Shown: positions 4,960-53,114 of the stretch, one piece after another
Layout of the letters: the number at the start of each line of letters is the position of its first letter
Numbering within the stretch: position 1 is the first letter of the stretch
From: Minwuia thermotolerans
Lineage (GTDB): Bacteria > Pseudomonadota > Alphaproteobacteria > Minwuiales > Minwuiaceae
NCBI RefSeq assembly: GCF_002924445.1
Contig: NZ_PIGG01000026.1
Span: 186,001-250,000, forward strand
DNA length: 64,000 bases
Direction: 5' to 3'
Notes under the pieces: generated by a model
The model's input: the letters and a program-made list of their open reading frames with translations, nothing else
Told to the model about the DNA's origin: nothing
The model's database searches: none
Translations under genes and position numbers: made by a program

Positions 4960-5958
4960 CTAGGCGGAATTCCTTTTCCGGGTGCTCTTGTTTTGCACGT
5001 CCGGGAAGGCGTCCGAAGCGCGTTTGACGACATTGATGTCGGCGTGATCGTAGCGGGCGACGGAGCGGATGTCCTTCCACCGCCCGGTCTTCAGCAGGTC
5101 GACCGAGTCCTTGCCGCCATACTGGCGCATCCAGGTCGCATAGCTGTGCGAGCCGAGTTCGTGCGGGCGCAGATACTCGACCTCGGCGGCGGTGCACGCC
5201 GCCTTCAGCGGCTTGTAGACGCGGTGGTAGTCAGTCCAGCCGAAGAGCCGGCCGTTCGGGTAGTCCGGCAGGTTGGCGAGCTCGGCGACGACGACGGGCG
5301 GCAGATGGATCAGGCGCGGCTCCTCTGTCTTCGACGTCAGCAGCCGCGCCCAGCCTTCCGCCAAGTTCAGGTCGTTGCCGTTCCTGTCGAAGCCCAGCGC
5401 CTCGGATGGCCGGCAGCCGGTGTTCAGGATGAAGATCAGGAACGCGCGCAGGCGCTGGTCGCAGTGGGGGAGCAGCTTCCGGAAATAGTCCGGCGATCCG
5501 GCCCGCGTGACGGGCTTCTTCATTTTCGGCCGCCGCCATTTGCGCGGCTGGCACAGGCCGTCCTCGACGGCATGGTTCCAGACCGCGATGAACGGCGTGT
5601 AGATCGAGCGGTTGCGCCAGGCCCCGCCGCCATCGGGGCTGATCTTGCGGGCCGCCCGGTCGAGACGCGGCTGGTCGATCTCGGCCAGCCTGAGGTGCCG
5701 GAACTCCTCGATCAGCTTGCCTAGATAGCGGGATTCGCCGCCGTTTTCCATGTAGGCGACGGCGGCCTCTAGGAACGTCGCTGTCGCCTCGGCGCCATGG
5801 ACACTACGGTGTTCGATTTCGCTTTCGCGCCGGATCCGGAGCGATTCCGCGAGGGTGCGGTCAGCAGTTCCTGTGCTCTCGAATACAGCCTGGCCTCGGA
5901 CGGTGCCGCGGAGGTACCAGTTTTTCGACCGGCCGCGCCGGGTGAGCTTGAGCGGCAT
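4960..5958 (-). CDS. int: Tyrosine-family phage integrase
   Basis: 332-residue site-specific recombinase catalysing integration at the tRNA-Gly gene. Its stop is 38 bp from attL. An N-terminal DNA-binding part is followed by a core-binding domain (about 55-135) and the catalytic domain (about 155-310). Arg183 (NTGCRPSEAL), a candidate Lys210 (TSKTEEPRL) and the nucleophile Tyr303 (SVARYDH) are clear. The HxxR box is unusual: it reads H-E-L-G-S-H from His266, so the second catalytic arginine is not at its usual place, and Trp294 stands where His or Trp is expected. The ATG at 5958 has a perfect GGAGG; a longer in-frame start at 6066 lies inside the HTH gene and is less likely. Confidence 0.93.
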   Translation of the reverse strand: MPLKLTRRGRSKNWYLRGTVRGQAVFESTGTADRTLAESLRIRRESEIEHRSVHGAEATATFLEAAVAYMENGGESRYLGKLIEEFRHLRLAEIDQPRLDRAARKISPDGGGAWRNRSIYTPFIAVWNHAVEDGLCQPRKWRRPKMKKPVTRAGSPDYFRKLLPHCDQRLRAFLIFILNTGCRPSEALGFDRNGNDLNLAEGWARLLTSKTEEPRLIHLPPVVVAELANLPDYPNGRLFGWTDYHRVYKPLKAACTAAEVEYLRPHELGSHSYATWMRQYGGKDSVDLLKTGRWKDIRSVARYDHADINVVKRASDAFPDVQNKSTRKRNSA

Positions 5959-6140
5959 CTCATGGCCTCCTTGATCGCGCGGATGTCGCTCTCGTCGAAA
6001 CGGTAGTGGCGCCCGGCGCGCATGACCCTGATCTCGGGATGCGCCTTGAGGAAATCCTGCATCCACCGGCGCGAGACACGCAAGGTCTCGCAGGCCTGGG
6101 CCATGGTGAGACAGCGTTCCTCCTTCATGGGCCCGGTCAT
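5769..6140 (-). CDS. Excisionase-like helix-turn-helix protein overlapping int
   Basis: 123-residue protein. Residues about 8-60 form an excisionase/MerR-like HTH domain (LTMAQACETLRVSRRWMQDF, then the wing ending RHYRFDESDIRAIKEAM). It is the probable excisionase or directionality factor. The domain ends exactly at the ribosome-binding site of int, and the frame then continues as a Ser/Arg-rich tail (CRSSSPGAAGRK) that overlaps the first 190 bp of int in another frame. Its ATG at 6140 overlaps the stop of the preceding gene (ATGA), which supports translation from here. Whether the tail matters is unknown. Confidence 0.7.
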   Translation of the reverse strand: MTGPMKEERCLTMAQACETLRVSRRWMQDFLKAHPEIRVMRAGRHYRFDESDIRAIKEAMRCRSSSPGAAGRKTGTSAAPSEARLYSRAQELLTAPSRNRSGSGAKAKSNTVVSMAPRRQRRS

Positions 6141-6983: not shown

Positions 6984-7679
6984 CTAGTTGGCCATGGCCG
7001 CGGCCGGGTGGCGCAGCGCGGGCAGGTGCTCGTCCAGGGTTTCGGCGTAGACCTCGGCCGCCGTGGCCCACGGCCAGGGCGTGATCTTCGCGCCCTTCGG
7101 CGTCTTCGCCAGCAGCGGGTCGGCCTTCAGCCAGTCGCGCCGTGCCGGGCCGTCCGGGACCAGCCAGCGGACCTCGCGGCCCAGCATCATGCGGTCGGCC
7201 TTGCGGACCTCGAACTCGATCGCTGCGGGCCGGGGCCATTCCAGGCCGGCGCGGGCGTGGATCGCGCGGTCGGCGATCTCCTTCAGATTCCCGAGGGCCA
7301 GCCGGACCGCGAGGCGGGCGTGCTGGTCGGTCATGCCGAGGTTCGCGGTGTCGGCCATCCGGGCCGCCGATTCCTGCAGCGCCCATTGCAGCGGCGTGAT
7401 CCAGTCGCCGAGCGCGGCCTCGTGGGCGTCGTGGAGCAGGAAATACGGCTTCACCTCGGCCGTGCAGTGGTCGAGGCCGAGGACCGAATGCTGGGCCACC
7501 GAGTAGGGCGCGCCCTCGGTGGCGCCGGCGAAGCGCGGCAGCCGGGCCAGCATCTCGGCGAGATCGCGGAAGTCGATGTCGTCCGGCGCGGCCGAGAGGA
7601 AGGGGTACTTCCGGCCGGAAGCCATGACCATGAAAGGGTCGTCGCTCAGGCCGGGATGGGGAATGCGGGGATGGGTCAC
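6984..7679 (-). CDS. HD-domain phosphohydrolase (YfbR-like)
   Basis: 231-residue protein with the HD-superfamily metal-binding pattern: SVAQHSVLGLDHC supplies the first His, FLLHDAHEAALGDWITP the HD pair, and a further Asp lies near KADRMML. This is the arrangement of YfbR-type 5'-deoxynucleotidases and of HD proteins in phage operons, so a role in nucleotide turnover during infection is plausible but not shown. The start is the GTG at 7679, which overlaps the TGA of the HNH gene (GTGA) and has GGAGG 7 nt upstream. Longer ATG starts lie inside the HNH gene. Confidence 0.72.
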   Translation of the reverse strand: MTHPRIPHPGLSDDPFMVMASGRKYPFLSAAPDDIDFRDLAEMLARLPRFAGATEGAPYSVAQHSVLGLDHCTAEVKPYFLLHDAHEAALGDWITPLQWALQESAARMADTANLGMTDQHARLAVRLALGNLKEIADRAIHARAGLEWPRPAAIEFEVRKADRMMLGREVRWLVPDGPARRDWLKADPLLAKTPKGAKITPWPWATAAEVYAETLDEHLPALRHPAAAMAN

Positions 7680-8236
7680 GAATCTGCCTCCGGAACGTGG
7701 GTCCAGGTCCGCCGCTTGCGGATCAGGTAGACGGTGCTGATGGAGACGCCGAAGTTGTCGGCGATGTCGGCATAGCGTTCGCCGCCATCGGCGCGGCGAC
7801 GGATGGCCGGGATATCGGCCTCGGAAAGGACGGCTCCGTTGGCCTTCGAGCCGCACAACCTTGTGCCGTGACGGGTGCGGTCAGCCTGATTTTCAAGCGC
7901 GCTTGCCCATCGAAGATTGGAGACCCGGTTGTCATCCTTGTCGCCGTTGTTGTGGGCGACGAGGGCGTCGTCGAAGGGCGGCGGGCCCAGGAAGGCGTCG
8001 GCCACCAGCCGCGATACACGGCGGTTGAAGCTCTGGCTGTCGCGGGTCAGGCAAACGACGTGGTAGCCGTGGGTCCGGGCGTGCGCGAGTATCCGGGCGC
8101 GCTTTCCGGCAACCCGTCCCCATGAGCTGACCTCGTAACCCGGCGCTTCGGAGATCGGCCGCCAGACCTCGACCCGATCGAATTCAGCGATCAGGCCGTG
8201 AACGGTCGCCGTCCCTGTCGCCGATTGAATGTTCAC
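7676..8236 (-). CDS. NUMOD4/HNH endonuclease
   Basis: 186-residue protein combining a NUMOD4 segment (EVWRPISEAPGYEVSSWGRV, about 22-41), an HNH nuclease core (LVAHNNGDKDDNRVSNLRWA, about 90-115) and a C-terminal HTH (YADIADNFGVSISTVYLIRK). This is the layout of free-standing HNH homing-type endonucleases of phages. They nick or cut specific DNA and often spread by homing; some help packaging. The start is the GTG at 8236, overlapping the upstream TGA. It lies in the early leftward operon, not beside the terminase genes. Confidence 0.82.
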   Translation of the reverse strand: MNIQSATGTATVHGLIAEFDRVEVWRPISEAPGYEVSSWGRVAGKRARILAHARTHGYHVVCLTRDSQSFNRRVSRLVADAFLGPPPFDDALVAHNNGDKDDNRVSNLRWASALENQADRTRHGTRLCGSKANGAVLSEADIPAIRRRADGGERYADIADNFGVSISTVYLIRKRRTWTHVPEADS

Positions 8237-8640
8237 GCTGCGCTCCCGCGGCCGAGGTCGGCGAGGATGCGGTGGGCCTCGGCGACCGCGTCGTCGCCGA
8301 GGGCGTCGATCTCGGCCTGGCTGAAGCCGGCGCGCCGCATGTCGCGCTCGGTGATCTGGGCATCCGGCCCGCGGCGGACCCACTCGGCGGCGAGCGCCTC
8401 GGCCATCTCCCGGGTGCGGAGCGGCGCGTCGGCCCCGGGCTGTCCGTCCATCCGCTGCCCGTCCATGCCATGACCGTCGTCGTCCGGTTCGCGGACGGCG
8501 CTCTGGGCGCAGGGCGCGGCGGCGCGGGCCGCGGCGTGGTGGCGGGCGATCTCGCGGTCGATCGCGGTCTCGGTGCGGCCCTTCAGGGCGCCGGCGGCGT
8601 GGCCGGGGGCCGCGGTGAGGGGGTCGTGGAGATGCAGCAT
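8233..8640 (-). CDS. Hypothetical early phage protein
   Basis: 135-residue polar protein and probably the first gene of the leftward early operon. GGAGG lies 7 nt before the ATG. The central part is rich in Asp/Gly/Met (DDDGHGMDGQRMDGQPG), and the C-terminal half is helical (EMAEALAAEW, DMRRAGFSQAEIDALGDDAV). No domain is recognised. The stop overlaps the GTG of the HNH gene, which implies coupled translation. Confidence 0.55.
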   Translation of the reverse strand: MLHLHDPLTAAPGHAAGALKGRTETAIDREIARHHAAARAAAPCAQSAVREPDDDGHGMDGQRMDGQPGADAPLRTREMAEALAAEWVRRGPDAQITERDMRRAGFSQAEIDALGDDAVAEAHRILADLGRGSAA

Positions 8641-8689
8641 CGGAGCCTCCGTTTGCGGAAAACGGAAGCGACGGTGCGGATTTTCTCAA

Positions 8690-12639: not shown

Positions 12640-13006
12640 GACGCGCCTGGTGGCGCTGACCGAGGCCGAGTTCGAGGGCGCGCTTCGCGGCGACGTCGAC
12701 CCGCGGTCGCTGGAGGGCGCGCGCGAGTGCTGGCGCCATGACGGCCTGATCGAGACGCCGGAGAAGCTGGTCGACCATCTGGAGCAGACCGGCCGCCACT
12801 ACCGCCGGCGGCTGACGGCGACGCCGGAGGCGACGGCGGGCGTGCCCGACTGGATCCGCCGCCTGGCGCCGGGCGCCGTGGTCTCGACGGCCGGCGTGGC
12901 GCGGGCCCTGTGCTGCTCCATGTCTCATGCCGCGGCGTTCGTTTCCGCGGCCGTCGCCGCCGGCGTGCTCACCGTCGACGGCGACCGCTACAGGCGGTCG
13001 TCATGA
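12623..13006 (+). CDS. Hypothetical phage protein, winged-helix-like C terminus
   Basis: 127-residue protein starting at ATG 12623 after a strong GGAGG; it overlaps the end of the methyltransferase gene by 17 bp. The N-terminal half is helical (LTEAEFEGALRGDVDP). The C-terminal half (VVSTAGVARALCCSMSHAAA then FVSAAVAAGVLTVDG) looks like a small winged-helix domain. No family is recognised. The stop overlaps the start of the cytosine methyltransferase gene. Confidence 0.55.
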   Translation: MPFLLETRLVALTEAEFEGALRGDVDPRSLEGARECWRHDGLIETPEKLVDHLEQTGRHYRRRLTATPEATAGVPDWIRRLAPGAVVSTAGVARALCCSMSHAAAFVSAAVAAGVLTVDGDRYRRSS

Positions 13007-14424
13007 GCGGGCCCATCCTGATCGCCGATCTGTTCTGCGGCGCGGGCGGGACGTCCGCCGGCGCGGTGCGCGCCCTGAACCGGCTCGGCCTCGCGCACGA
13101 GCTGGTCTGCGTCAATCACTGGGCCGTGGCGATCGAGACCCACACACGGAATCATCCGGAAGCCCGCCATCACTGCGTCGACCTGGCGACGGCCCGGCCC
13201 GAGGCCATCGTGCCCGAAGGCCGGCTCGACCTGCTGGTCGCCTCGCCGACCTGCACCTATCACAGCCGCGCCCGGGCCGGGAAACCGACCACGGATCAGC
13301 AGCGCATGGACCCCTGGCACGTCGTCACCTGGGCGACGTCGCTGGAGGTCGACCGGATCATGGTCGAGAACGTGCCCGAGTTCATGGACTGGGGCCCGGT
13401 CGATGCGGAGACGGGCAAGCCCGATCCGTCGCGGCGCGGCGAGTATTTCGGCGCGTGGATCGCGGCGCTCGAAGCCATCGGCTACGACGTCGAGAGCCGG
13501 ATCCTGAACTGCGCCGACTATGGCGACGCGACCACGCGCCAGCGCTTCTTCCTGCTGGGGCGGCGTCGCGGGCGGCCTATCCGCTGGCCGTCGCCCAGCC
13601 ATGCGCCCGCCGAGAAGGCGGCGGCGCTGGGCCGGCGGCCGTGGCGCCCGGCGCGCGAGATCATCGACTGGTCGCTGCCGTCCGAATCGATCTTCACCCG
13701 CGCCAGGCCGCTCTCGGAGAAGACGCTGGCGCGGATCGCGGCGGGGCTGGCGAAGTTCGGCGGCGCGGCGGCGGAGCCGTTCCTGGTCGTGCTGCGCAAT
13801 CACTGCGACGCCCGGGGCCTCGACCCCGGGTCGTGGCCCGGGGCAGGCCTGCCTCCGGCGGATGCGAACCTGCAAGGATCGCTGACAGGTTCACCACCGG
13901 CCATGGTCATCGGCCAGCACGGCGGGGCGACGGCGCGGCCCGTCGACCGGCCGGTGCCGACCATCGCCACGCTGGGCGCGGTCAGCCTGGTCGAGCCGTT
14001 CATGGTTCCGAACTTCGGCGAGCGCGACGGGCAACCGCCGCGGGTCCACGCTCTCGACGATCCGCTGCCCACGGTGACGTCGCGCGGGGCAGGCAACCTG
14101 ATCCAGCCCATGCTGACTGCCTATTACGGCGCGAATGCGGGCTGCAAGCCGGTCACGGAGCCGATGGACACGGTGACGACGAAGGACCGCTTCGGCCTGG
14201 TCGAGCCCGACGCCGGCCCGCCGGTCGACATCCGCTACCGCATGCTGCAGCCGCACGAGCTGGCCGGGGCCATGTCCTTCGACGCCGACTACGACTTCGC
14301 CGGCACGAAGACCGAGATCAAGCGCCAGATCGGCAACGCCGTGCCGACCCGCACCGCCGAGGCGCTGATCGGTGCGGCCTTCGCCGAGGAAGCCGGCGGC
14401 GCCGGCGGGCGGGCCGCGGCATGA
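13003..14424 (+). CDS. C5-cytosine DNA methyltransferase
   Basis: 473-residue 5-methylcytosine methyltransferase. Motif I is LIADLFCGAGGTSAGAV; the catalytic Cys is in LLVASPTCTYHSRARAG (motif IV, with PTC in place of PPC, as in many phage enzymes); motif VI is MVENVPEFMDWG; motif VIII is ATTRQRFFLLGRR; motifs IX-X are near LQPHELAGAMSF and IKRQIGNAVP. The target-recognition region (about 300-430) has three imperfect repeats (PVPTIATLGAVSLVEPF, PLPTVTSRGAGNLIQP, PMDTVTTKDRFGLVEP). It also contains the peptide LDPGSWPGAG encoded by a REP-like palindrome. It likely protects phage DNA from restriction. Confidence 0.93.
   Translation: MSGPILIADLFCGAGGTSAGAVRALNRLGLAHELVCVNHWAVAIETHTRNHPEARHHCVDLATARPEAIVPEGRLDLLVASPTCTYHSRARAGKPTTDQQRMDPWHVVTWATSLEVDRIMVENVPEFMDWGPVDAETGKPDPSRRGEYFGAWIAALEAIGYDVESRILNCADYGDATTRQRFFLLGRRRGRPIRWPSPSHAPAEKAAALGRRPWRPAREIIDWSLPSESIFTRARPLSEKTLARIAAGLAKFGGAAAEPFLVVLRNHCDARGLDPGSWPGAGLPPADANLQGSLTGSPPAMVIGQHGGATARPVDRPVPTIATLGAVSLVEPFMVPNFGERDGQPPRVHALDDPLPTVTSRGAGNLIQPMLTAYYGANAGCKPVTEPMDTVTTKDRFGLVEPDAGPPVDIRYRMLQPHELAGAMSFDADYDFAGTKTEIKRQIGNAVPTRTAEALIGAAFAEEAGGAGGRAAA
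13820..13847. repeat. REP-like palindrome, copy 1
   Basis: CCCCGGG (13824-13830) and CCCGGGG (13837-13843) form an inverted repeat followed by CAGGC. It is in frame inside the cytosine methyltransferase and encodes LDPGSWPGAG. Related copies are at 16289-16316 and, inverted, at 28231-28256. Confidence 0.6.
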
Positions 14425-14531
14425 AGTACGGATTCGAAATCGCCATGGGCGCGGTTGTGGCCCTCGGCCTCGGCGTCTTCGCCGGCATTGTCTGGCCGCT
14501 GCTGACTGCCGCGCCGGGGGTGTGTTTCTGA
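14421..14531 (+). CDS. 36-residue single-span membrane peptide
   Basis: Short gene starting at the ATG that overlaps the stop of the cytosine methyltransferase (ATGA) and ending with a TGA that overlaps the next ATG. The peptide begins MKYGFEIAMGAV, has one strongly hydrophobic helix (VVALGLGVFAGIVWPLL) and ends in a short tail with Cys. The conserved overlap on both sides argues that it is translated. The role is unknown. Confidence 0.6.
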   Translation: MKYGFEIAMGAVVALGLGVFAGIVWPLLTAAPGVCF

Positions 14532-14806
14532 TGGCGGTGCGGCGCACAGCGAGGGGACGGGCGGTGTTCGGCTGCGATGCGCCGGGCTGCGGGGCTTATG
14601 GCGCCTTCGGCTTCAGCCCGCCGGGCGGCGGGGTCGAGGAGGGGCAGCGCTTCTGCCGCGTCCACGCCGAGGCCCACGACCGCGAACAGGTCGAGGCCGG
14701 CCATATCGCCCCGGCCCAGGCGCTGTTCCGCGAGAACCGCTCGCTGCGGCCCGCAGTGCGGAAGCGCGACGCTGCGGTGACCGAGAACGCGGAGCGGTTG
14801 CTGTGA
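14531..14806 (+). CDS. Small putative zinc-binding phage protein
   Basis: 91-residue protein with CDAPGCGAYG near residue 14 and FCRVHAEAH near residue 40; Cys and His spaced this way suggest one zinc site. The rest is a charged helix (REQVEAGHIAPAQALFRE). The ATG overlaps the upstream stop. No family is recognised. It is followed by a noncoding-looking segment rather than another coupled gene. Confidence 0.55.
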   Translation: MAVRRTARGRAVFGCDAPGCGAYGAFGFSPPGGGVEEGQRFCRVHAEAHDREQVEAGHIAPAQALFRENRSLRPAVRKRDAAVTENAERLL

Positions 14807-14870
14807 TGGCGGACTTGACATCGCCGGCGGCTGCGGCACTCTGGGCGGCGGAGCTTGACACCTCCTTGAT

Positions 14871-15000
14871 GGCGGGAATCCGCCCCCGAAATCCAGGCGG
14901 ATTTTCTCTGCCTACCCTATGGCGGGAGGCCGGTAGCGGTAACGCCCGGGCCTGTCCATCAACAGGTGTCACCTCCCGTCGCCCGGGCGGTCTGACAGCC
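14871..15000 (+). ncRNA. Candidate structured RNA in the early operon
   Basis: About 130 nt with nested inverted repeats. (1) AATCCGCC (14877-14884) pairs with GGCGGATT (14896-14903). (2) CTACC (14912-14916) pairs with GGTAG (14932-14936). (3) CGCCCGGGC (14943-14951) pairs with GCCCGGGCG (14981-14989) and encloses CCTGT/ACAGG (14951-14955, 14962-14966). (4) GGGAGG (14924-14929) can also pair with CCTCCC (14972-14977), which would be a long-range or pseudoknot contact. Two TTGACA boxes lie upstream (about 14815 and 14854). The segment interrupts a chain of coupled genes. It may be a leader or regulatory RNA, comparable in place to P4-type immunity RNAs, but I cannot assign a family. A frame stays open through it from 14803, so a coding role is not excluded. 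Confidence 0.5.
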
Positions 15001-15039
15001 TTCCGAGCGGCGTCCTGCAGCGCCCTGATGGAGGCCGGC

Positions 15040-15375
15040 ATGACCCATGACGCCCGCATTGCGCCCGCACGGCGCAGCCCCCGATACGCACTTTCCCCCG
15101 ATCATCTGAGCCATCTCGGCCGCGCCGAATATCTGCTCGGCGAGCTGCTGGAGCGCGCCGACGTGATCGAGACGCCCGCCGGGCCGGTGCTGGCCTTCGC
15201 GCCGGGCCGCGGCCTGCTGGCGGCGCTGGCCGACTGGGGCGCGGACCTGGCCGACGACGAACCGGACGGCGGCGACGAACCCGACGACGACCGGGAAGAC
15301 GACGATCCGGCGGAAGCGGAGCCGGACGATGAGGCGGCGTGGTCGCCGCTGCTGCTCAGAGGAGGTCAGGGATGA
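15040..15375 (+). CDS. Hypothetical early protein with acidic tail
   Basis: 111-residue protein starting at ATG 15040, which has GGAGG 6 nt upstream. The frame is open back to 14803, but the intervening codons lie in the structured segment and look non-protein-like. The middle part is helical (LGRAEYLLGELLERADVIE). The last 35 residues are almost all Asp/Glu/Pro (DDDREDDDPAEAEPDDEA), like a DNA-mimic or scaffold tail. Function unknown. The stop overlaps the next ATG. Confidence 0.6.
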   Translation: MTHDARIAPARRSPRYALSPDHLSHLGRAEYLLGELLERADVIETPAGPVLAFAPGRGLLAALADWGADLADDEPDGGDEPDDDREDDDPAEAEPDDEAAWSPLLLRGGQG

Positions 15376-15764
15376 GTGAGGCGGCGGAGGGCTCGCGGCC
15401 CATTCTGGTTGATCTGGGGAACGGGCTCAGCGTGGTGACGCGCCGCGCTTCCACCGAGGTCGTGGCCCAAATACTGCTTGAAGTCGCGGATAACCACCCC
15501 TTCTCGGGGTCGGCCTGGGGTGGTGCGCCGGCACGCTTCCAGGCGTTCTGCTCGTGTCTCGGGTACGTTCTGATATCGGAATGGCGCGGTGTTTGTCCGG
15601 ACGATCCGGAGCGCCGCAATGGTGGGATGATGGCCGAAGAGCCCGCGTTCGCCACCATTCTGTTATCCGATGGGTCCCGCGCCTTGCGCTATTTGCACGC
15701 CCTCGGCTTCGATCTTTCGACACTGCCGGACTGGATCCTGCCCAGGCCCGAGGGGTGGGACTAG
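15372..15764 (+). CDS. Hypothetical early phage protein
   Basis: 130-residue protein, ATG overlapping the upstream stop. It contains PILVDLGNGLSVVTRRASTE, ARFQAFCSCLGYVLISEWRG and ATILLSDGSRALRYLHALGF. Codon use is slightly less GC-rich than its neighbours. No domain is recognised. It stops directly before the primase ATG (TAGATG), so it is probably co-translated with the replication genes. Confidence 0.55.
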   Translation: MSEAAEGSRPILVDLGNGLSVVTRRASTEVVAQILLEVADNHPFSGSAWGGAPARFQAFCSCLGYVLISEWRGVCPDDPERRNGGMMAEEPAFATILLSDGSRALRYLHALGFDLSTLPDWILPRPEGWD

Positions 15765-16838
15765 ATGGCCGTCTCGCCCGAGAGACAGGCTCTGGCCGAG
15801 GAGGTGCGGCGGCGCGTGGCGCTGGTCGAGCTGGTCGGCCGCGACGTGCCATTGAAGCGGCGCGGCGGCGACCACTGGGCCTGCTGTCCGTTCCATTCCG
15901 AGCGCTCGCCGTCGTTCAAGGTCTCGGAGGCGCGGGGCGACTGGCACTGCTTCGGCTGCGGCGCGCATGGCGACTGCTTCGGCTGGATCATGGCCCGGCG
16001 CGGCGTCGGCTTCGCCGAGGCGCTCGACGAGCTGGCGGATCTGGTGGGGCTGGCCGTTCCAGCATCCGGCGCGGCGCGCGACCCGCTGCCGCCGGTCGCA
16101 GAGCGGAAGTCCCGCGCCGCGATGGAGGCCGACGACCGGGCGGCGATCGAGCGGGCGCGGGCGATCTGGGCCAGCGGCCGGCCGATCGCGGGCACGCGGG
16201 CCGAAAGCTATCTCAGGGCGCGCGGGATCACGATTCCGCTGCCGCCGACGCTGCGCTATCACCCGGCGCTCAGATACACATATGAACTGGACCCCGGATC
16301 GGCGTCCGGGGCAGGCGAGCGCGCGCCCCGGAAATATGCGGTCCACGGCGTCTACCCGGCCATGCTGGCGGCGATGCAGAACGCGCAGGGTATCGTCGTC
16401 GGCGTGCACCGGACCTACCTGGCGCCGGATGGTGATCCCCGCAAGGCCGACGACCTGCCGCCGGACCCGCTGCGCCCGGAGAAGCGCCTGGGCGCGAAGA
16501 AGATGGCCGGGCGGCCCTGGGGCGGGGCGATAAGGCTCTGCCCGGCGGCCCCGCGGATCGGCCTGGGCGAGGGCATCGAGACGGCGCTGTCGGTGATGCA
16601 GGCCGCCGGCCGGCCGGTCTGGGCCGCCGGATCGCGGGGCAATTTCGCCGCCGTCGACCTGCCCGAGACGGTCGAGGCGGTCGACATCTACGCCGACGGC
16701 GAGCGGGCGCGCGAGGATGCCCGGAAGGTGATGGCCAAGGCGGCGCGCTTTCACCAGGACGCGCGGCGGCGCATGCGCGTGCACTGGGCGCCCGAGGGTT
16801 TCGACTTCAACGACGTGCTGATGGGGCGGTGGCCATGA
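15765..16838 (+). CDS. Phage DNA primase, CHC2 zinc finger plus Toprim
   Basis: 357-residue primase that makes RNA primers at the phage fork. The N terminus has the DnaG-type zinc finger (HWACCPFHSERSPSF ... WHCFGCGAHGDCFGW, about 34-75). The Toprim part has IGLGEGIETALSVMQAAGR (catalytic Glu) near residue 270 and VEAVDIYADGERA for the second acidic motif. It lacks the DnaB-binding C-terminal domain of cellular DnaG. A REP-like palindrome inside the gene encodes ELDPGSASGAGE at about 174-186. The stop overlaps the helicase start. Confidence 0.9.
   Translation: MAVSPERQALAEEVRRRVALVELVGRDVPLKRRGGDHWACCPFHSERSPSFKVSEARGDWHCFGCGAHGDCFGWIMARRGVGFAEALDELADLVGLAVPASGAARDPLPPVAERKSRAAMEADDRAAIERARAIWASGRPIAGTRAESYLRARGITIPLPPTLRYHPALRYTYELDPGSASGAGERAPRKYAVHGVYPAMLAAMQNAQGIVVGVHRTYLAPDGDPRKADDLPPDPLRPEKRLGAKKMAGRPWGGAIRLCPAAPRIGLGEGIETALSVMQAAGRPVWAAGSRGNFAAVDLPETVEAVDIYADGERAREDARKVMAKAARFHQDARRRMRVHWAPEGFDFNDVLMGRWP
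16289..16316. repeat. REP-like palindrome, copy 2
   Basis: CCCCGGA (16292-16298) and TCCGGGG (16305-16311) form an inverted repeat followed by CAGGC. It is in frame inside the primase gene, where it encodes LDPGSASGAG. It shares the core ACCCCGG...CCGGGGCAGGC with the copy at 13820-13847. Confidence 0.6.
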
Positions 16839-18370
16839 CCGACCGCGAGGGGAACGGCGAGACGCCCGGGGGCGGCGAAGGCGAGGGCGGCGTCGAGATG
16901 GAACGCTGGCCAGCCGACAGGCCGCGGCCCGAGGGGCTCGGCGTCGGCGACGCGGCGGTGATGGCGGCGCTGGGCGAGGCGCGGATCTGGTCGACGGGCA
17001 CGTCGATCGGGGTCGACGAATTCAACGCCGAGTTCGCGGTCGTCCAGACCGGCGGCAAGACGCTGATCCTGAAGGAGAACCCGCCCGATCCGGGCGGCCT
17101 GGAGCCGCGCATCGACCTGCTCCGCCGCGAGGACTTCGAGCTCTGGACCCGGCCGAACCGGACGGTGGTGGTGGGCCGCGAGAAGAAGGGCGGGGGGTTC
17201 CTGGGCAATGTGGTGCCGTCCTCGGCGATCTGGCTGTCGAGCCCGCGCCGGCGGCAGTACCGCGGCATCGAGTTCGCGCCCGCCGCGCCGGGGCAGGACA
17301 ACGGCCGGGCCGGGTTCTACAACCTCTGGCGCGGCTTCGCCGTCGAGCCCGACCCGGCCGGCGCGGCCAAGTGCTCAAAGTTCCTGGCGCACATCTGGGA
17401 GAACGTCGCGCAGGACGATATCCGGCTCTATGACTGGATCCTGGGCTTCCTCGCCCAGATGGTCCAGGCGCCCGAGGTCCGGCCCGGCGTGGCGCTGGTG
17501 CTGCGCGGCAAGCAGGGCGTCGGCAAGTCGACCATCGGCGACATCATGGGCGCGCTGTTCCCGGGCAACTACGTCCTGGCCGATCAGGGCCGCTATGTCA
17601 CTGGCCAGTTTAACGCGCATCTGGCCGACTGCCTGCTGTTGCAGGCCGACGAGGCCTTCTGGGCCGGTGATCACGACGCCGAGGGCCGCCTGAAGGGCAT
17701 GGTCACCGGCCGCTACCAGATGATCGAGCGCAAGGGCGTCGACCCGATCAAGGTGGCCAACTTCGTGCGGCTCATCATCACGTCGAACAAGTCCTGGGTG
17801 GTGCCCGCGGGCGCGGAGGAGCGGCGCTTCTGCGTCGTCGACGTGGGCGAGGACCGGATCCAGGACCGCGAATATTTCGGCGCGCTCTACCGCGAGATGC
17901 TGGAAGAGGGGGGTTTGAGCGGGCTGCTGCATCACCTGATGGAGATCGACGTCGAGGCCGCCGACCTGAACGCCATTCCAGAGACCGGGGCGCTGCTGGA
18001 GCAGAAGGTGCGCGGCATGAGCCCGGAGGAAAGCTGGTGGTTCCATCGGCTGTCGGAGGGCGCGCCGACGCCGGGAGTCAAGGGCTGGGAAGAGGTGGTG
18101 CCCAAGGCCTGGCTGCACGCCGACTATATCGCCTATGCCGATCGTCTCGGCTTTCGGCACAAGCTGGCGGAGAACTCCTTCGGCTCCGCGATGGTGCGCA
18201 TGCTGCCATGGACCAAGAGCGTTTTCCGAACGCCGCCTATGCGCGAGGGGGACCCTCACCCAGGCGATCGCGTCCAGTGTCGTCTCCTGCCGCCGCTGGC
18301 GGCCTGCCGGGCCTATTTCTCCGCTCAACTCCAGGCTGCGATCGACTGGGGCGATGAGGGCGGCTCATGA
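16835..18370 (+). CDS. Phage replicative helicase, SF3-like P-loop ATPase
   Basis: 511-residue ATPase of the VirE/DUF5906 type that follows primase genes in many phages and satellites. Walker A is RGKQGVGKSTIGD (about 225), Walker B is DCLLLQADEAFW (about 265), and sensor 1 is VRLIITSNKSWVVP (about 310). An N-terminal domain of about 200 residues precedes it, and the C terminus is helical. Start is ATG 16835, overlapping the primase stop; GTG 16829 adds two residues. It should unwind phage DNA together with the primase. The iteron cluster starts 9 bp after its stop. Confidence 0.85.
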   Translation: MTDREGNGETPGGGEGEGGVEMERWPADRPRPEGLGVGDAAVMAALGEARIWSTGTSIGVDEFNAEFAVVQTGGKTLILKENPPDPGGLEPRIDLLRREDFELWTRPNRTVVVGREKKGGGFLGNVVPSSAIWLSSPRRRQYRGIEFAPAAPGQDNGRAGFYNLWRGFAVEPDPAGAAKCSKFLAHIWENVAQDDIRLYDWILGFLAQMVQAPEVRPGVALVLRGKQGVGKSTIGDIMGALFPGNYVLADQGRYVTGQFNAHLADCLLLQADEAFWAGDHDAEGRLKGMVTGRYQMIERKGVDPIKVANFVRLIITSNKSWVVPAGAEERRFCVVDVGEDRIQDREYFGALYREMLEEGGLSGLLHHLMEIDVEAADLNAIPETGALLEQKVRGMSPEESWWFHRLSEGAPTPGVKGWEEVVPKAWLHADYIAYADRLGFRHKLAENSFGSAMVRMLPWTKSVFRTPPMREGDPHPGDRVQCRLLPPLAACRAYFSAQLQAAIDWGDEGGS

Positions 18371-18378
18371 CGCGAGGC

Positions 18379-18627
18379 GTAGGGGCTGTAGGGGTGCGCG
18401 TAGGGGTTTGCGGCCAGCTATATCGTTGAAATTAAAGAGCGGGGTAGGGGATGTAGGGGTTGTAGGGGCTATATCGCGCGCGTGTGTAAACATCGGCTTC
18501 ATCATATCCGGGGTTTTTCTTATGCGCGCGGGAGAAACCCCTACAACCCCTACAACCCCTACGGCAGATAGAAATATCAATGTCTTGGCGCGTAGGGGTT
18601 TCGACTATCAGCCCCTACAACCCCTAC
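18379..18627. repeat. GTAGGGG iteron cluster, candidate phage origin
   Basis: Twelve exact GTAGGGG heptamers in 249 bp. Seven are forward (18379, 18388, 18400, 18444, 18453, 18462, 18592) and five inverted as CCCCTAC (18538, 18547, 18556, 18612, 18621). Many are spaced 9 bp apart. The triads at 18444-18468 and 18538-18562 are inverted with respect to each other and could pair into a 25-bp hairpin with one mismatch region. The left triad plus a preceding G run also makes a perfect G-quadruplex pattern (four GGGG runs at 18441-18468, loops 2, 5 and 5). The spacer is AT-richer. Position directly after primase and helicase suggests a replication origin. I see no protein-coding gene here. Confidence 0.7.
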
Positions 18628-18643
18628 ATGGAGGTGATCGGCG

Positions 18644-19243
18644 ATGATGCAGTACCGGAACCAGGGCGCGGCGCCGGCCTCGGCGCCAATGAAGCGGGAG
18701 ATGGATGTCGAGGACCTGCTGGTCTGGGCGTTCCGCGAGCAGCAGGTGCAGGCGGTGCTCGGCCGGACGGCCGCGGCGCGGATGGCGGGTCCGGCGATGT
18801 ACGCCCGGGACTCGACGGTGGTGCTGGCCAAGATCGCCGAGCTGGGGTGCTGGGTGGATGGCGGCGGCGCGCCGTCGGACAGGATCCACGGCGATGCGGT
18901 CGAGGTCTGGTCGGCGGTCGCTCACCTGCCGGCGGCCCAGGCCGGGGCGGTGGCGCACTACGCCCAGGCCGGGGCGGCGCCGGAATGGCCGGGCGATATC
19001 GAGCTCCGGTGGATCCCGCGCCGCGATACGCGGGGGCGGGTTGCCTACGAGTTCTCTGATTCGCAGCGCCGCGACGGCAAATACACGCCGGTCCGGCTCT
19101 ATCCGAACTGGGAGTCGGTCGAGCTGATGATGCAGGCCTGGAACGACTGGGTCGACGGATTGTCCTTGGTTTGCAAGCTGTTGGAGGGCCGGCTGGAGGA
19201 TCATGCGGCGCTGCCGAGCGGCCGTTCGAAGTGGAGGGCTTGA
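18644..19243 (+). CDS. Hypothetical phage protein
   Basis: 199-residue protein starting at ATG 18644 after GGAGG and directly downstream of the iterons. The N-terminal half is helical (MKREMDVEDLLVWAFREQQV); the C-terminal half contains YTPVRLYPNWESVELMMQAW. No domain is recognised. Its place between the candidate origin and the methyltransferase/terminase block suggests replication control or packaging regulation, but this is only positional. Confidence 0.6.
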   Translation: MMQYRNQGAAPASAPMKREMDVEDLLVWAFREQQVQAVLGRTAAARMAGPAMYARDSTVVLAKIAELGCWVDGGGAPSDRIHGDAVEVWSAVAHLPAAQAGAVAHYAQAGAAPEWPGDIELRWIPRRDTRGRVAYEFSDSQRRDGKYTPVRLYPNWESVELMMQAWNDWVDGLSLVCKLLEGRLEDHAALPSGRSKWRA

Positions 19244-19365
19244 CCGACGTTCTGGATTTGGTCACCCTTCGACACAGTGAGAAAGGTTCACGGGTCCTAC
19301 CTAGCCGAAAACGTAAACGGTTGGCGGGGGCGCAGAACATCTCCAGTTTTTTCCATTCCATTGAA

Positions 19366-19413
19366 GTTGACGAGTTGACGGCAGTTGACCGCTGCCGGGT
19401 GACGGCGTTGACG
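19366..19413. promoter_or_regulatory. Cluster of GTTGAC repeats before the ParB-methyltransferase gene
   Basis: GTTGACG at 19366, 19374 and 19407, GTTGACC at 19384 and GTGACG at 19399, all in the last 62 bp before the ATG at 19428. The rest of the 184-bp gap (19244-19427) is AT-richer and holds no convincing gene. It could be stacked -35-like elements or a regulator-binding array for the late operon. Confidence 0.4.
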
Positions 19414-19427
19414 CGCGAGGTTGGCCG

Positions 19428-20756
19428 ATGCCGAAGAGGGCTGCTGCGGTGCCGGCCGGCGCCCGTGAGATCGTCATGGCGCCGATCACCGAACTGATTC
19501 CCTATGCTCGGAACGCCCGGACGCATAGCGACGACCAGGTCGAGATGATCGCGGCCTCCATCCGCCGATACGGCTTCAACGCCCCGGTGCTGACCGACGG
19601 CGAGGGCGGCATCCTGGCGGGCCATGGCCGCGTGCTGGCGGCGGAGCGGGCGGGCCTCGCCGAGGTGCCGACGGTCCCGTTGGGCCACCTGAACGCAGAA
19701 CAGCGCCGCGCCTATATCCTTGCCGATAACCGCATCGCCGAGCACGCCGGCTGGGACGAGGACCTGTTGCGGATCGAGCTGGAGGCGCTGGCCGAGCTCG
19801 AGGTCGATCTCGACGGCCTCGGCTTCGATGCGGACTTCATGGCCGGGCTGTTCGACGAGGCCGTCGGCGGCGAGGCCGAACCGGAGCCCGATCAGGGTTC
19901 GGAGACGGAAGACGATGCGCCGGAGCCCGAAGCGGACCCGGTGAGCCGGCCCGGCGATATCTGGCTGCTGGGCGAGCATCGCCTTGGCTGCGGCGACAGC
20001 ACCGACGCCGCCTTCGTCGCCCAGGTCCTGGCCGATGCGAAGCCGGGCCTGATGGTCACCGATCCGCCCTATGGCGTCGCCTATGATCCCGACTGGCGCA
20101 ACCGGGCCGAAGGCATCGGCGGCTGGGGCGATCCAGAAAAGGCCCGGGCCGGTGCCAAGTCGTCTAGGGCGGTCGGTACAGTTTCGAACGACGACCGCGC
20201 CGACTGGCGAGAGGCCTGGGAGCTGTTCCCGGGCGATATCGCCTATATCTGGCATTCGGCGCTGCACGCCTCCGAGGTCGAGGCCTCGTTGATGGCAGCG
20301 AAGTTCGAGACCCGCGCCCAGATCATCTGGGCCAAGTCGTCGATCGTGATCTCGCGCGGCCACTATCACTGGAAGCACGAGCCCTGCTGGTACGCCGTCC
20401 GCAAGGGCGGCACGGCCAACTGGAAGGGTGACCGCAAGCAGGCGACCGTCTGGGAGATCTCGCACCGGCGCTCGCCGACCGGCCATGGCACGCAGAAGCC
20501 GGTCGAGGCCATGCGCCGCCCGATCCTGAACCACACCGGGCCCGGCGATCAGGTCTACGACCCGTTTCTGGGCTCGGGGACCACGCCGATCGCCGCGGAG
20601 CTCACCGGTCGGACCTGCTTCGGCCTGGAGCTCAACCCGGCCTATTGCGACGTCATCATCCGCCGCTGGCAGGACGAAAGCGGCGGCCTGGCAACTCACG
20701 CCCAGACCGGCGAGACCTTCGAGGGACGGGCCGCGAGGCCTGAGGCCGCCGACTAG
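19428..20756 (+). CDS. ParB-N domain fused to DNA methyltransferase (N6/N4 type)
   Basis: 442-residue fusion. Residues about 15-110 are a ParB N-terminal-like domain (LIPYARNARTHSDDQVEMIA, then GGILAGHGRVLAAERAGL). After a Glu/Asp/Pro linker comes a methyltransferase domain: GLMVTDPPYGVAYDPDW (motif IV, about 205-222) precedes YDPFLGSGTTPIAAEL (motif I, about 382). This is the order of the beta class that also includes CcrM. ParB-methylase fusions are common in temperate phages of alphaproteobacteria. It probably methylates adenine in phage DNA before packaging; the target is unknown. Confidence 0.88.
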   Translation: MPKRAAAVPAGAREIVMAPITELIPYARNARTHSDDQVEMIAASIRRYGFNAPVLTDGEGGILAGHGRVLAAERAGLAEVPTVPLGHLNAEQRRAYILADNRIAEHAGWDEDLLRIELEALAELEVDLDGLGFDADFMAGLFDEAVGGEAEPEPDQGSETEDDAPEPEADPVSRPGDIWLLGEHRLGCGDSTDAAFVAQVLADAKPGLMVTDPPYGVAYDPDWRNRAEGIGGWGDPEKARAGAKSSRAVGTVSNDDRADWREAWELFPGDIAYIWHSALHASEVEASLMAAKFETRAQIIWAKSSIVISRGHYHWKHEPCWYAVRKGGTANWKGDRKQATVWEISHRRSPTGHGTQKPVEAMRRPILNHTGPGDQVYDPFLGSGTTPIAAELTGRTCFGLELNPAYCDVIIRRWQDESGGLATHAQTGETFEGRAARPEAAD

Positions 20757-20782
20757 GTCACCCCATCGGAGGACAGGTCGAT

Positions 20783-21352
20783 ATGGCACCCGTCACGCAG
20801 GCCGGCTACGCCGAAACGCGCGGCGTGACCCGGCAGTACATCAACAAGCTCACGAAGGAAGGCCGCCTGCGGACTATCGGCCCGCGGAAGATGATCGACC
20901 CGGCAGAGGCCGATCAGGTCCTGGGCTATGCGACGGAGGCGGCGCCAGACGAAGAGGCACCCCCGGCCGCCGCGCCGGTCCTGGACCCGGATCCGGAACC
21001 CGGCCCGTCGCCGCGTCCGGCGCCGGCCACGCCCGCCGATTCCGCAGGGATGAACTATACCCGCGCCCGAGCCGCGACCGAGACCTTCCGGGCCAAGCAG
21101 GCCGAGCTCGAGCTCAAACAGCGCATGGGGCAGCTGCTGCCGCGCGACATGGTCGTCGAGGCCATGTCGGAGGCGGGCGTCCGCATCGCGCGCCACCTCG
21201 ACCGGCTGGTCCGGGACGCCGACGAGATTGCCGAGGTCGCCGGCCGTGGCGGCGCGCGGGAAGTCCGCCAGATGTTGCGCCAGAAGGTGCGCCAGCTGCG
21301 CGCCGAAATCGCGGCCGAGATCACGCTCACCGATGAGCCGGGAGGCGAATGA
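20783..21352 (+). CDS. Terminase small subunit, Nu1-like
   Basis: 189-residue DNA-recognition subunit of the packaging motor. The N terminus is an HTH resembling lambda Nu1 (YAETRGVTRQYINKLTKEGR), a Pro/Asp-rich linker follows (about 55-85), then helices (TRARAATETFRAKQAELELK) and a long C-terminal helix that would bind the large subunit. It is immediately followed by the gpA-type large subunit. A cos site should lie nearby but I could not locate it by eye. Confidence 0.83.
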   Translation: MAPVTQAGYAETRGVTRQYINKLTKEGRLRTIGPRKMIDPAEADQVLGYATEAAPDEEAPPAAAPVLDPDPEPGPSPRPAPATPADSAGMNYTRARAATETFRAKQAELELKQRMGQLLPRDMVVEAMSEAGVRIARHLDRLVRDADEIAEVAGRGGAREVRQMLRQKVRQLRAEIAAEITLTDEPGGE

Positions 21353-21355
21353 CCG

Positions 21356-23401
21356 ATGTGGAATGAGGGCCAGGCGTGGAGCAGGGCCAGCGTCGCCGCC
21401 ATTGTAGCGGGCGCGCTGGCGTCGACGATCGCGCCCGCCGAGAGCATCACGCCGTCCGCCTGGGCGGCGAAGAATCTGGTCGTGCCCGACGGCCCCTATG
21501 AGGGCCAGCTCTGGGACCCGACGCTGACGCCACAGCTCGCCGAGATCATGGACCACCTGTCGCCGGACAGTCCCGTGAACGCGATCTCGCTCCGCAAGTC
21601 GGCGCAGCTCGGCGCGACGACCATCGGCATCGCCTGGTCGGGCTATGTCACCGACATCGACCCGGCGCCCTTCATGACCGTCATGCCGACGCTGGACGGC
21701 GCCGACGGCTACAACCGCGAGAAACTGCACCCGGCGATCGTCGCCTCCGAGCCACTCCGGCGTAAGATCGTCGAGGCTCGATCGCGGTCCTCGCGCTCTT
21801 CCACGGCCCGGACCAAGCGATTCCCCGGCGGCTCCATCATCCTGACCGGCGCCAACTCGGCGGCCGATCTCCGCTCCAAGACGCGGAAGTACATGAACCT
21901 CGACGAGGTCGACGAGTGGCCGATCGATCTGGCGGGGCAGGGCGACCCGTTCGAAATGGCCGCCGCCCGACAGCTCGCCTACCGGGAGAGCGGCGACTGG
22001 AAGCGCTTCGCCACCTCGACGCCGACGATCAAGGGCGCCAGCCGCATCGACGACCTCTTCGAGGCCGGCGATCAGCGCTACTGGGAAATCCGATGCCCCC
22101 ACTGCGGTGGCGAGCAGCGCCTGGTCTTCGGCGGCCGCGACGCGCCTTACGGGCTGAAGTTCGCGACGACCTATCCGCACCGCGCCCACTATGTCTGCCG
22201 CCATGCCGGCTGCGTTATCGAGCATTCCGCCAAGGCGGCCATGGTCCGCGGCGGACGCTGGGTCGCGGCCAACCCGGGTCCGGGCCGCGATCCGTCCTAC
22301 CACCTCGACACCCTGACCTCGCTGCTGGTCGGCTGGGACGACGTTGCCGACGCCTTCCTGAAGGCGGGCAAGAACCCCGAGAAACTGAAGACCTTCTGGA
22401 ACCTCTGGCTAGGGCTCCCCTGGGAGGAGCGGGGCGACGCGCCGGACTGGCAGCGGCTCTACGCGCGGCGCGCCGACTACCCGGCCGGCGTCGTGCCCCA
22501 TGGCGGCCTGGTGCTCACCGCCGGCGTGGACGTCCAGGGCGACGGGCTCTACTGCGAGGTCGTGGCCTGGGGCCGGGGCGAGCGGTCCTGGACCGTCGAC
22601 GCCCGCTTCATTCCCGGCGACACCGCGCGTGAGGGCGACCCGTGCTGGACCGAGCTCGACCGGCTCTACAACGCCCGCTGGCCCATGGCGACCGGCGGCT
22701 CCATCCCGCTGGATCTGATGGGCGTCGATTCCGGCTTCAACACGAACGCGGTCTACGCCTTCGTCCGCCACCGGCCCAAGGCCATGGCCCTGAAGGGCGT
22801 GGCCGGCTGGACCGCCCCGCCGATCGGCACGCCGACGAAGCTGGACGTCAATACCGCCGGCAAGAAGAAGCGCCGCGGCCTGCAGGTCTGGCCGGTCGGC
22901 ACCTGGGCGCTGAAGGCCAAGTTCTACGGCTTCCTGCGCCAGCCCGGCCGCGCCGAGGGCGAGGACGCCGATCCGGAAGGCTACTGCCATTTCGGGCAGT
23001 TCCTCGACCGCCGCTACTTCCAGCAGCTGACCGCGGAGTACATCGCCGAGAGCGAACGCAAGGGCCACAAGCGGCGCGAATGGGTCGCCCGCGGCGAGAA
23101 TCATTTCCACGACTGCCGGGTCTACAATCTGGGCCTCGCCTGGCGCCTCAAGCTCGACCGCCTGAGCGAGGACGACTGGACCGGGCTGTCGCGCCAGCGG
23201 GACGCCAGGCCCGACCAGGGCGACATGGTGGCGCTGATGAACGGCGCGCCCGAACCCGGATGCACCGCGAAGCCTTCGCCGCCGGCCGCGCCGGAGACCG
23301 GCGACCCTGCCACGCCCGAAGCCACCGCGCCGCCTTCGAAATCCACCCGGCCGCGCCGCCGCGGTCCCCGCGTCGTCTCCTTCCGCAACACGGGACGCTA
23401 G
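21356..23401 (+). CDS. Terminase large subunit, lambda gpA family
   Basis: 681-residue packaging ATPase and nuclease. The N-terminal ATPase region contains KSAQLGATTIGIAWSGY (atypical Walker A, as in the gpA family) and MNLDEVDEWP (Walker B). The zinc-binding insertion IRCPHCGGEQRLVF (C-x2-C) with YVCRHAGC follows near 245-285. The nuclease domain begins at GLVLTAGVDVQGDGLYCEVV, with LDLMGVDSGFNTNAVY as the second acidic motif. The C-terminal 50 residues are Pro-rich and basic. GpA-type terminases cut at cos, so the virion DNA should have cohesive ends. Confidence 0.93.
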   Translation: MWNEGQAWSRASVAAIVAGALASTIAPAESITPSAWAAKNLVVPDGPYEGQLWDPTLTPQLAEIMDHLSPDSPVNAISLRKSAQLGATTIGIAWSGYVTDIDPAPFMTVMPTLDGADGYNREKLHPAIVASEPLRRKIVEARSRSSRSSTARTKRFPGGSIILTGANSAADLRSKTRKYMNLDEVDEWPIDLAGQGDPFEMAAARQLAYRESGDWKRFATSTPTIKGASRIDDLFEAGDQRYWEIRCPHCGGEQRLVFGGRDAPYGLKFATTYPHRAHYVCRHAGCVIEHSAKAAMVRGGRWVAANPGPGRDPSYHLDTLTSLLVGWDDVADAFLKAGKNPEKLKTFWNLWLGLPWEERGDAPDWQRLYARRADYPAGVVPHGGLVLTAGVDVQGDGLYCEVVAWGRGERSWTVDARFIPGDTAREGDPCWTELDRLYNARWPMATGGSIPLDLMGVDSGFNTNAVYAFVRHRPKAMALKGVAGWTAPPIGTPTKLDVNTAGKKKRRGLQVWPVGTWALKAKFYGFLRQPGRAEGEDADPEGYCHFGQFLDRRYFQQLTAEYIAESERKGHKRREWVARGENHFHDCRVYNLGLAWRLKLDRLSEDDWTGLSRQRDARPDQGDMVALMNGAPEPGCTAKPSPPAAPETGDPATPEATAPPSKSTRPRRRGPRVVSFRNTGR

Positions 23402-52624: not shown

Positions 52625-52922
52625 CCGATGGTCGTTCGGGCGCGCGCGGAATTTTCGGCTTCTCGAGTGCCAGGGCGCATCCGTCCCATCGATCGCCTCG
52701 CCGAGGGCAGGCGCCGGCGTTGCGGATGGCCGTCAGCATGTCGGGGATCGCCTTCCCGTGGCCGAATCGGCGGAGCAGGGTGTGCAGCCGATAACGGCCG
52801 ACACGGTCGCAGCGTCCGCACCGGATATCGATCATCCGGTCCTCGACAAGATCCAGCAATGTGCGTGAGCCGCCTGGCATTTCGTCAATCTGGACCGGAA
52901 CGGACCGGAAATACAGGTGCAC
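52608..52922 (-). CDS. Conserved hypothetical protein with Cys pair
   Basis: 104-residue protein of a family common in alphaproteobacteria and their prophages: LVEDRMIDIRCGRCDRVGRY, RLHTLLRRFGHGKAIPDMLT and CPRRGDRWDGCALALEKP. Cys pairs (CGRC and C...C) suggest a zinc ribbon. It is convergent with the EAL gene (17-bp overlap) and is the last gene before attR; its promoter lies in 52923-53036. Function unknown. Confidence 0.6.
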   Translation of the reverse strand: MHLYFRSVPVQIDEMPGGSRTLLDLVEDRMIDIRCGRCDRVGRYRLHTLLRRFGHGKAIPDMLTAIRNAGACPRRGDRWDGCALALEKPKIPRAPERPSAIRKP

Positions 52923-53036
52923 GGATTCTGCACGCCTATCCGTGCACGTTCATGCACCGTTCTGCCGATTCGCGCCAATCCCCGCCGATTGGCGGAAGGT
53001 CTACACTGGCCCTAACGGCCTGTAATGATTGGAAGA

Positions 53037-53088
53037 AATTGGAGCGGGCGATGAGATTCGAACTCACGACCCCAACCTTGGCAAGGTT
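53037..53088. repeat. attR: 52-bp repeat inside the tRNA-Gly gene
   Basis: Identical to 4871-4922. It covers the 3' end through the anticodon stem of tRNA-Gly(GCC); the remaining 5' part of the tRNA to the right is host sequence. The phage supplies the 3' half, so the tRNA stays functional. Confidence 0.95.
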
Positions 53089-53114
53089 GTGCTCTACCCC
53101 TGAGCTACGCCCGC
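53040..53114 (-). tRNA. tRNA-Gly (anticodon GCC)
   Basis: On the minus strand the sequence runs from GCGGGCG to CGCCCGC-T-CCA. The acceptor stem is 7 bp (GCGGGCG/CGCCCGC), the D arm is GCTC-AGGGGTA-GAGC, the anticodon arm is CAACC-TTGCCAA-GGTTG and the T arm is GTGAG-TTCGAAT-CTCAT with one weak pair. The CCA end is encoded (53042-53040). It is the integration target of the prophage. Confidence 0.95.

Follow-up and report, generated by a model that had tools for sequence, protein, structure and literature searches.

The twelve GTAGGGG heptamers directly downstream of a DUF5906-type helicase gene in a prophage of Minwuia thermotolerans very probably constitute the replication origin of that prophage with the helicase as its initiator, an assignment made from sequence and supported by comparison with related loci. 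The best reading of the array was a bipartite origin resembling the Rep-ori of phage P4 and the PICIs that would be bound by the helicase itself and at which replication would start. The idea of such an origin is already known, since it is present in the available portions of the PICI literature (PMC6092414; PMC10111431; PMC10803314), and the present analysis adds its occurrence in full-size prophages and plasmids of the helicase clade together with a measured layout.

The window (the whole stretch of DNA analysed, 64,000 nucleotides; GC 0.69) is part of a 4.9-Mb genome and contained a prophage with an integrase (4960-6066), CII-like regulator, portal, major head protein, tape measure, GpA-type terminase, and tail-tip J protein. 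An HNH endonuclease with a NUMOD4 motif was encoded at 7676-8689, and an EAL/GGDEF gene plus tRNA-Gly right of the tail genes (50894-53114) perhaps belonged to the host flank. The features relevant to the proposed origin were as follows.

15765-16838, plus strand: DnaG-type primase gene with CHC2 zinc ribbon, DUF7146, and Toprim_3 Pfam matches above cut-off; phrog_510 primase
16829-18370, plus strand: SF3-type helicase gene, DUF5906/NrS-1 polymerase-like (PF19263, E 7e-25); proposed origin-binding initiator
18023-18367, plus strand: C-terminal winged-helix domain of the helicase (residues 399-513) from predicted fold and hmmsearch; proposed iteron reader
18379-18394, plus strand: left outer iteron pair (18379-18385 and 18388-18394), the pair element of the shared layout
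18400-18406, plus strand: left single iteron, oriented like the iterons beside it; this arrangement is the less common one (7 of 27 strict arrays including the window)
18441-18468, plus strand: G-quadruplex-like motif of four GGGG runs with loops of 2, 5, and 5, not conserved in the family
18444-18468, plus strand: left inner iteron triad (starts 18444, 18453, and 18462), 9-bp pitch
18469-18537, no strand: spacer between the inverted triads, 69 bp, A+T 0.49; proposed melting region
18538-18562, minus strand: right inner iteron triad (starts 18538, 18547, and 18556), 9-bp pitch, inverted relative to the left triad
18592-18598, plus strand: right single iteron, inverted relative to its own half
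18612-18627, minus strand: right outer iteron pair (18612-18618 and 18621-18627), the pair element of the shared layout
18644-19243, plus strand: gene after the array with a PHROG match to phrog_9306 (function not assigned by the match)

The array (18379-18627) occupied the space between the helicase stop at 18370 and the next gene at 18644 and contained 12 exact GTAGGGG/CCCCTAC heptamers, with seven starting on the plus strand (18379, 18388, 18400, 18444, 18453, 18462, and 18592) and five on the minus strand (18538, 18547, 18556, 18612, and 18621). Start-to-start steps were 9 bp in 6 of 11 cases and otherwise 12, 44, 76, 36, and 20 bp. Just two further copies were found in the rest of the window, for which the expectation over the entire window was 2.88 (sd 1.58; maximum 7 in 100 shuffles). 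In dinucleotide shuffles of 18371-18643 (n = 2000) a count of 12 was never attained by any 7-mer (maximum 9, mean 2.2), and the runner-up repeated 7-mer of the window was a CG repeat with 7 copies (250-bp windows, 25-bp step). The tandem pair pattern GTAGGGGNNGTAGGGG had six matches in the 4.9-Mb genome, all inside the array. The original prediction of twelve exact heptamers in both orientations and mostly at 9-bp steps, of two triads inverted across an AT-richer spacer (A+T 0.49 vs. 0.31 for the whole window), and of a location directly after the primase and helicase genes was confirmed by these coordinates.

Arrays of this kind were identified beside related helicases. Helicase relatives were present in 383 of 50,697 phage records, 9 of 72,556 plasmids, and 8 of 385 genomes of the same class including the window's own. 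A discovery scan for de novo 7-mers in 28 helicase loci plus the window displayed triads at 9-bp pitch with inverted copies, but with different letters, in 8 of the 28, five of them from genomes and the others a Roseomonas plasmid, Vibrio vulnificus pMP1, and Roseobacter phage RDJL Phi 2 (array approximately 2.1 kb past the helicase); an E. coli plasmid in the same scan had eight copies with one pair at 9 bp, and the layout was also present in small plasmids. Exact triads between -50 and +800 of the helicase stop had a pitch of 9 in 20 of 112 loci (stop included in 109), with no other pitch from 7 to 24. The test set consisted of genome loci from the best 80 of 105 helicase relatives. The non-redundant set retained 151 of 192 loci, 64 of them from the genome test set, once loci were excluded that shared 90% identity or more, lacked the stop, or had less than 300 bp of downstream sequence. 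Between -30 and +300 of the stop, exact triads occurred at pitch 9 in 34 of the 64 genome loci (pitch 11 in three, pitch 10 in one, and none at other pitches from 7 to 24) and in 19 of the 87 other loci, which contained no other pitch. Pairs near the stop of the 64 genome loci had pitch 9 in 54 and pitch 18 in 41, with every other pitch in 18 or fewer. Away from the stop, pitch-9 triads were found in 4 of the 64 genome loci and 3 of the 87 others, and other pitches in one or two.

Using an array score permitting one mismatch, which favours the 9-bp pitch by design while the exact-triad pitch scan does not, a strong array was found at the helicase stop of 69 of the 151 non-redundant loci compared to 3 of 2807 control windows of the same loci. 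A strong array at the stop was absent in the other 82, and in an earlier scan 37 of 108 loci failed to exceed all of their own control windows. No such array was found in the Yuavirus records L061 and L064, and the nearest helicase relative (L071, 58% identical) had a degenerate CTGGGCA-type array. The same kind of triads lay approximately 2 kb downstream in L069 (+2141 from the helicase stop) and L129 (+2393), and L012 contained 13 ACAGCCT copies (3843-3959) mostly at 8-bp steps approximately 2.9 kb past its helicase match. The check for conservation beside homologous helicases therefore came out in favour of the layout (69/151 vs. 3/2807) and against the heptamer letters.

The letters themselves were rejected as a conserved signal by scans of viral contigs and genomes. 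Three GTAGGGG at 9-bp pitch occurred in 27 stretches of the viral contigs, most of which by eye resembled coding Pro/Thr repeats. Apparently non-coding GTAGGGG arrays of mixed orientation were present in viral contigs L015/L022, L037, and L027; no match to the window helicase was found in the DNA examined around them (some stretches were short), and a different initiator may use similar letters there. Convergent pairs with a gap of 25-55 were not found in the viral contigs, a range that excludes the window's own gap of 69. Among 143 genomes including the window's own, four others contained one or two matches to GTAGGGGNNGTAGGGG, a number not above that of the reversed control pattern.

Arrays of repeated sites such as these can bind regulators, and repeats in both orientations between two genes would fit repressor operators or a region that controls transcription of the early operon rather than an origin. 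Consensus scans of 18300-18700 revealed no sigma-70-like promoter and a sole terminator-like site (18301-18313) that lay inside the helicase gene, and the place and layout of the arrays tracked the helicase gene across loci and small plasmids, making an operator function very unlikely. A partition or centromere-like site was a further candidate. The replication genes were flanked by a C5 DNA methylase (13006-14424) and by a ParB_N plus N6/N4 methylase fusion (19428-20756), and the latter protein matches ParB-like PHROGs and is encoded approximately 0.8 kb downstream of the array that it might read. Plasmid pMP1 (L058) carries an array without such an annotated gene, and this explanation was considered extremely improbable.

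The layout of the arrays was more constant than their letters. The commonest layout was pair, single, triad, spacer, inverted triad, single, and pair, giving six iterons per half. In the 41 loci with both triads, the left triad started at a median of +73 from the stop (quartiles 68 and 81). The spacer was 49-170 bp long with a mean GC of 0.54 vs. 0.63 for the locus and was lower than its locus in 35 of the 41, part of which may reflect the intergenic position where lower GC is usual. Strict matching kept 27 of the 41 two-triad loci. Six iterons were counted in the left half of 20 and the right half of 16 of these strict arrays, half of each six arising by selection because both triads were required; twelve iterons in total were found in 14 arrays and eleven in 6, while the other 7 had 6, 9, 10, or 13. 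Read outward, the commonest half was three direct, one inverted, and two direct copies (25 of 54 halves). The offset of the inverted single was 51-54 in 37 of 48 cases, and direct outer copies were mostly at offsets 72-74 and 82-84 or 92, with rarer iteron offsets approximately 10-11 bp from the main ones. These classes suggest a spacing by helical turns, a reading taken from the visible offset classes, as periods between 9 and 10.5 bp could not be told apart when the offsets of the inverted singles were tested. The window fitted the layout except for its left single at 18400, which was on its neighbours' strand as in six other of the 27 arrays.

Aligned per-locus consensuses were centred on GGTNGGACAG, and the window letters ACCCCTACAA were an outlier in the same register. 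Iteron-letter distance (n = 41) followed the winged helix of the helicase when corrected for the core (partial Mantel 0.21, p 0.007) and the core when corrected for the winged helix (0.19, p 0.015), but not the Head (0.00). The value for the two winged-helix helices alone was 0.14 (p 0.06), and the highest uncorrected correlation was with the linker 346-398 (0.50). Co-variation was positive, but specificity for the winged helix was rejected because the letters followed the core about equally well.

Two structural elements had also been proposed within the array. Four GGGG runs with loops of 2, 5, and 5 are present at 18441-18468, which would allow a G-quadruplex in the GTAGGGG triad to be the working element. 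A G3+ motif occurred in 7 of 41 two-triad arrays including the window and the layout was kept with G-poor iterons such as AGATAGC, so that the motif looks incidental and a working role has next to no likelihood. The window strand also folds with a long hairpin (z -6.2), but this hairpin follows from the inverted triads because they are complementary and did not hold up as a separate element.

The fold is relevant to another explanation, by which the DnaG-type primase recognises the heptamers in single-stranded form or the initiator recognises the inverted-triad hairpin, as proposed for pRN1. Precedents in the accessible parts of the literature include priming at an 8-nt site by the NrS-1 polymerase (PMC8718748), priming seen at iterons with the SCCmec CCPol-MP (PMC7581432), and the stem-loop downstream of the replication gene that pRN1 requires (PMC4234260), and the good folding of the window strand agrees with the hairpin version. 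Array-associated proteins carried CHC2 (L059), PrimPol (L069 and L057), or no recognised primase domain (L058 and L056), the arrays of L059 and L069 lying approximately 0.3 and 2.1 kb further downstream, which argues against primase sites; a simple hairpin would have no need of outer pairs and singles at preferred offsets. This explanation was judged improbable. Because the array-associated proteins differ in this manner, the helicase is their common factor, and it is a better candidate for the iteron binder than the product of the gene at 18644.

The helicase matched PF19263 (DUF5906) with 88.3 bits compared to a cut-off of 27.6, as for a DUF5906/NrS-1-type helicase, and its other Pfam match (VapE) was below cut-off. 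The AF2 model (pLDDT 90.5) had the NrS-1 C-terminal region as its best PDB fold match (Z 25.7), then the SaPI5 primase-helicase (Z 19.4) followed by AsfvPrimPol and vaccinia D5. Residues 395-513 modelled alone (AF2 pLDDT 91.1) matched the RFX-DBD 1dp7 (Z 7.1, 74 aligned), RFX5 (Z 6.5), and the P4 origin-binding domain 1ka8 (Z 5.6, rmsd 3.1, 70 aligned; tied with ORC winged helices), with every RFX and P4 match at Z < 8. An hmmsearch with the winged helix identified RFX5 (E 8e-4), and pairwise hhalign of the C-termini gave low probabilities (25 vs. P4 alpha and 49 vs. the CFT073 PICI Rep). These matches predict an RFX-like winged helix at the C-terminus, similar to the origin-binding domain of P4; the fold evidence is modest since Foldseek alone returned nothing below E 0.001 (top row RFX5, E 0.08). 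By this prediction, the helicase has the SF3 fold with C-terminal winged-helix domain of a P4/PICI-type Rep.

The array shared two further traits with the P4/PICI-type Rep-ori: short iterons grouped on either side of an AT-richer region, and a position directly 3' of the helicase/rep gene, the first heptamer starting 9 bases past the stop. The P4 alpha protein is an SF3 helicase with a C-terminal winged-helix origin-binding domain (PMC4234260, in its available text; 1ka8), and the P4 ori has iterons in a 3-1-2 half-site (9310, 9320, 9331, inverted 9353, 9396, and 9406). The type I iterons annotated in the P4 record (GGTGAACA) have letters near GGTNGGACAG, and crr directly follows the alpha gene, matching the array position in the window. 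P4 differs in that ori and crr are separated by several kb, the ori pitch is 10-11 bp, and the layout is not clearly recognisable in crr, whose repeats each have five annotated iterons. In addition, alpha contains its own primase whereas the window primase is a separate gene, and alpha matches D5_N, DUF5906, and Pox_D5. Membership in the P4 alpha family proper was rejected, and the window helicase was not so classed, because D5_N and Pox_D5 Pfam matches were tested and not found; among 47 aligned proteins, five matched Pox_D5 at E 0.01 and none D5_N.

According to the portions of the reports available, PICIs have two iteron sets with an AT-rich region between them 3' of rep, and deletion of the ori lowered plasmid maintenance for the E. 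coli CFT073 PICI (PMC6092414), PICI genes for Primase, SSB, and DUF5906 colocalise with mapped origins (PMC10111431), and DUF5906 is among the models for the PICMI satellite primase, the deletion of which lowers replication (PMC10803314). The origin of the CFT073 PICI (EcCICFT073) resembles 2-1-3/3-1-2, with 0 or 1 mismatches to a 9-mer in the left half, 1 to 3 in the right half, and a few extra weak matches among the copies. It differs in that several copies are degenerate and its Rep carries D5_N and Pox_D5. The SaPI5 primase-helicase is a near fold match of the window helicase, but PICIs and SaPIs are satellites whereas the prophage of the window is full-size and has genes for a terminase, a portal, the tail, and an integrase. 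The literature titles and abstracts searched held no description of the layout beside DUF5906 helicases in full-size phages, and for PICIs it may already be contained in published iteron maps (figure of PMC6092414).

The C-terminal helicase (DUF5906) of the NrS-1 polymerase was the best PDB match by both fold and sequence profile. It is fused to a PrimPol while the window has a separate CHC2/Toprim primase gene, a difference in architecture and not in helicase family, and the available text mentions an 8-nt priming site that is present twice in the genome, but no iteron array (PMC7102993). The C-terminal domain of the SCCmec helicase Cch2 binds a putative origin directly downstream of its gene, which has just three 5-nt iterons in the part of the report available (PMC7581432). 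Lambda-type origins have iterons inside the O-type initiator gene, in contrast to the window array between two genes, and no O-type initiator was matched by Pfam among nine proteins of 12644-23401. Classical iteron plasmids encode a Rep_3 initiator beside the iterons, and no Rep_3 match was found among the same nine neighbours. The iteron-type origin proposed after the helicase was consequently retained in having two arrays that face each other over a lower-GC spacer and a conserved layout, while its lambda-like frame gave way to a resemblance to the P4/PICI Rep-ori.

In the proposed mechanism, the initiator would be the helicase encoded directly upstream of the array and its C-terminal RFX-like winged helix would bind each heptamer. 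The six iterons per side (triad, single, and pair) could gather the subunits of one hexameric SF3 ring, perhaps one subunit per iteron, and the inverted half-sites would set a second ring head to head with the first across the lower-GC spacer, as in double-hexamer loading. The two rings would melt the spacer and the adjacent DnaG-type primase might then prime. A tentative generalisation, held at somewhat less than even confidence, is that bipartite origins of D5/NrS-1-type self-loading helicases share a geometric code (2-1-3/3-1-2) that extends over P4, PICIs, full-size phages, and small plasmids, with six iterons per half, one per subunit, and clusters spaced by helical turns, while the letters drift to a private code for each replicon.

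If true, sequence data could reveal where the origin lies and how it is patterned in many phages and plasmids with a helicase annotated as DUF5906, primase, or even integrase. The agreement of six iterons per half with a hexameric helicase would provide a direct handle on how self-loading helicases form two opposed rings at an origin. With letters that vary on a constant layout, the arrays would also be a natural set of variants in which to study how RFX-like winged helices recognise DNA. Regarding annotation, 13 of the 40 phage records listed (e.g., H3, H4, and H6) label the DUF5906 helicase as an integrase or putative integrase, which is probably a misannotation.
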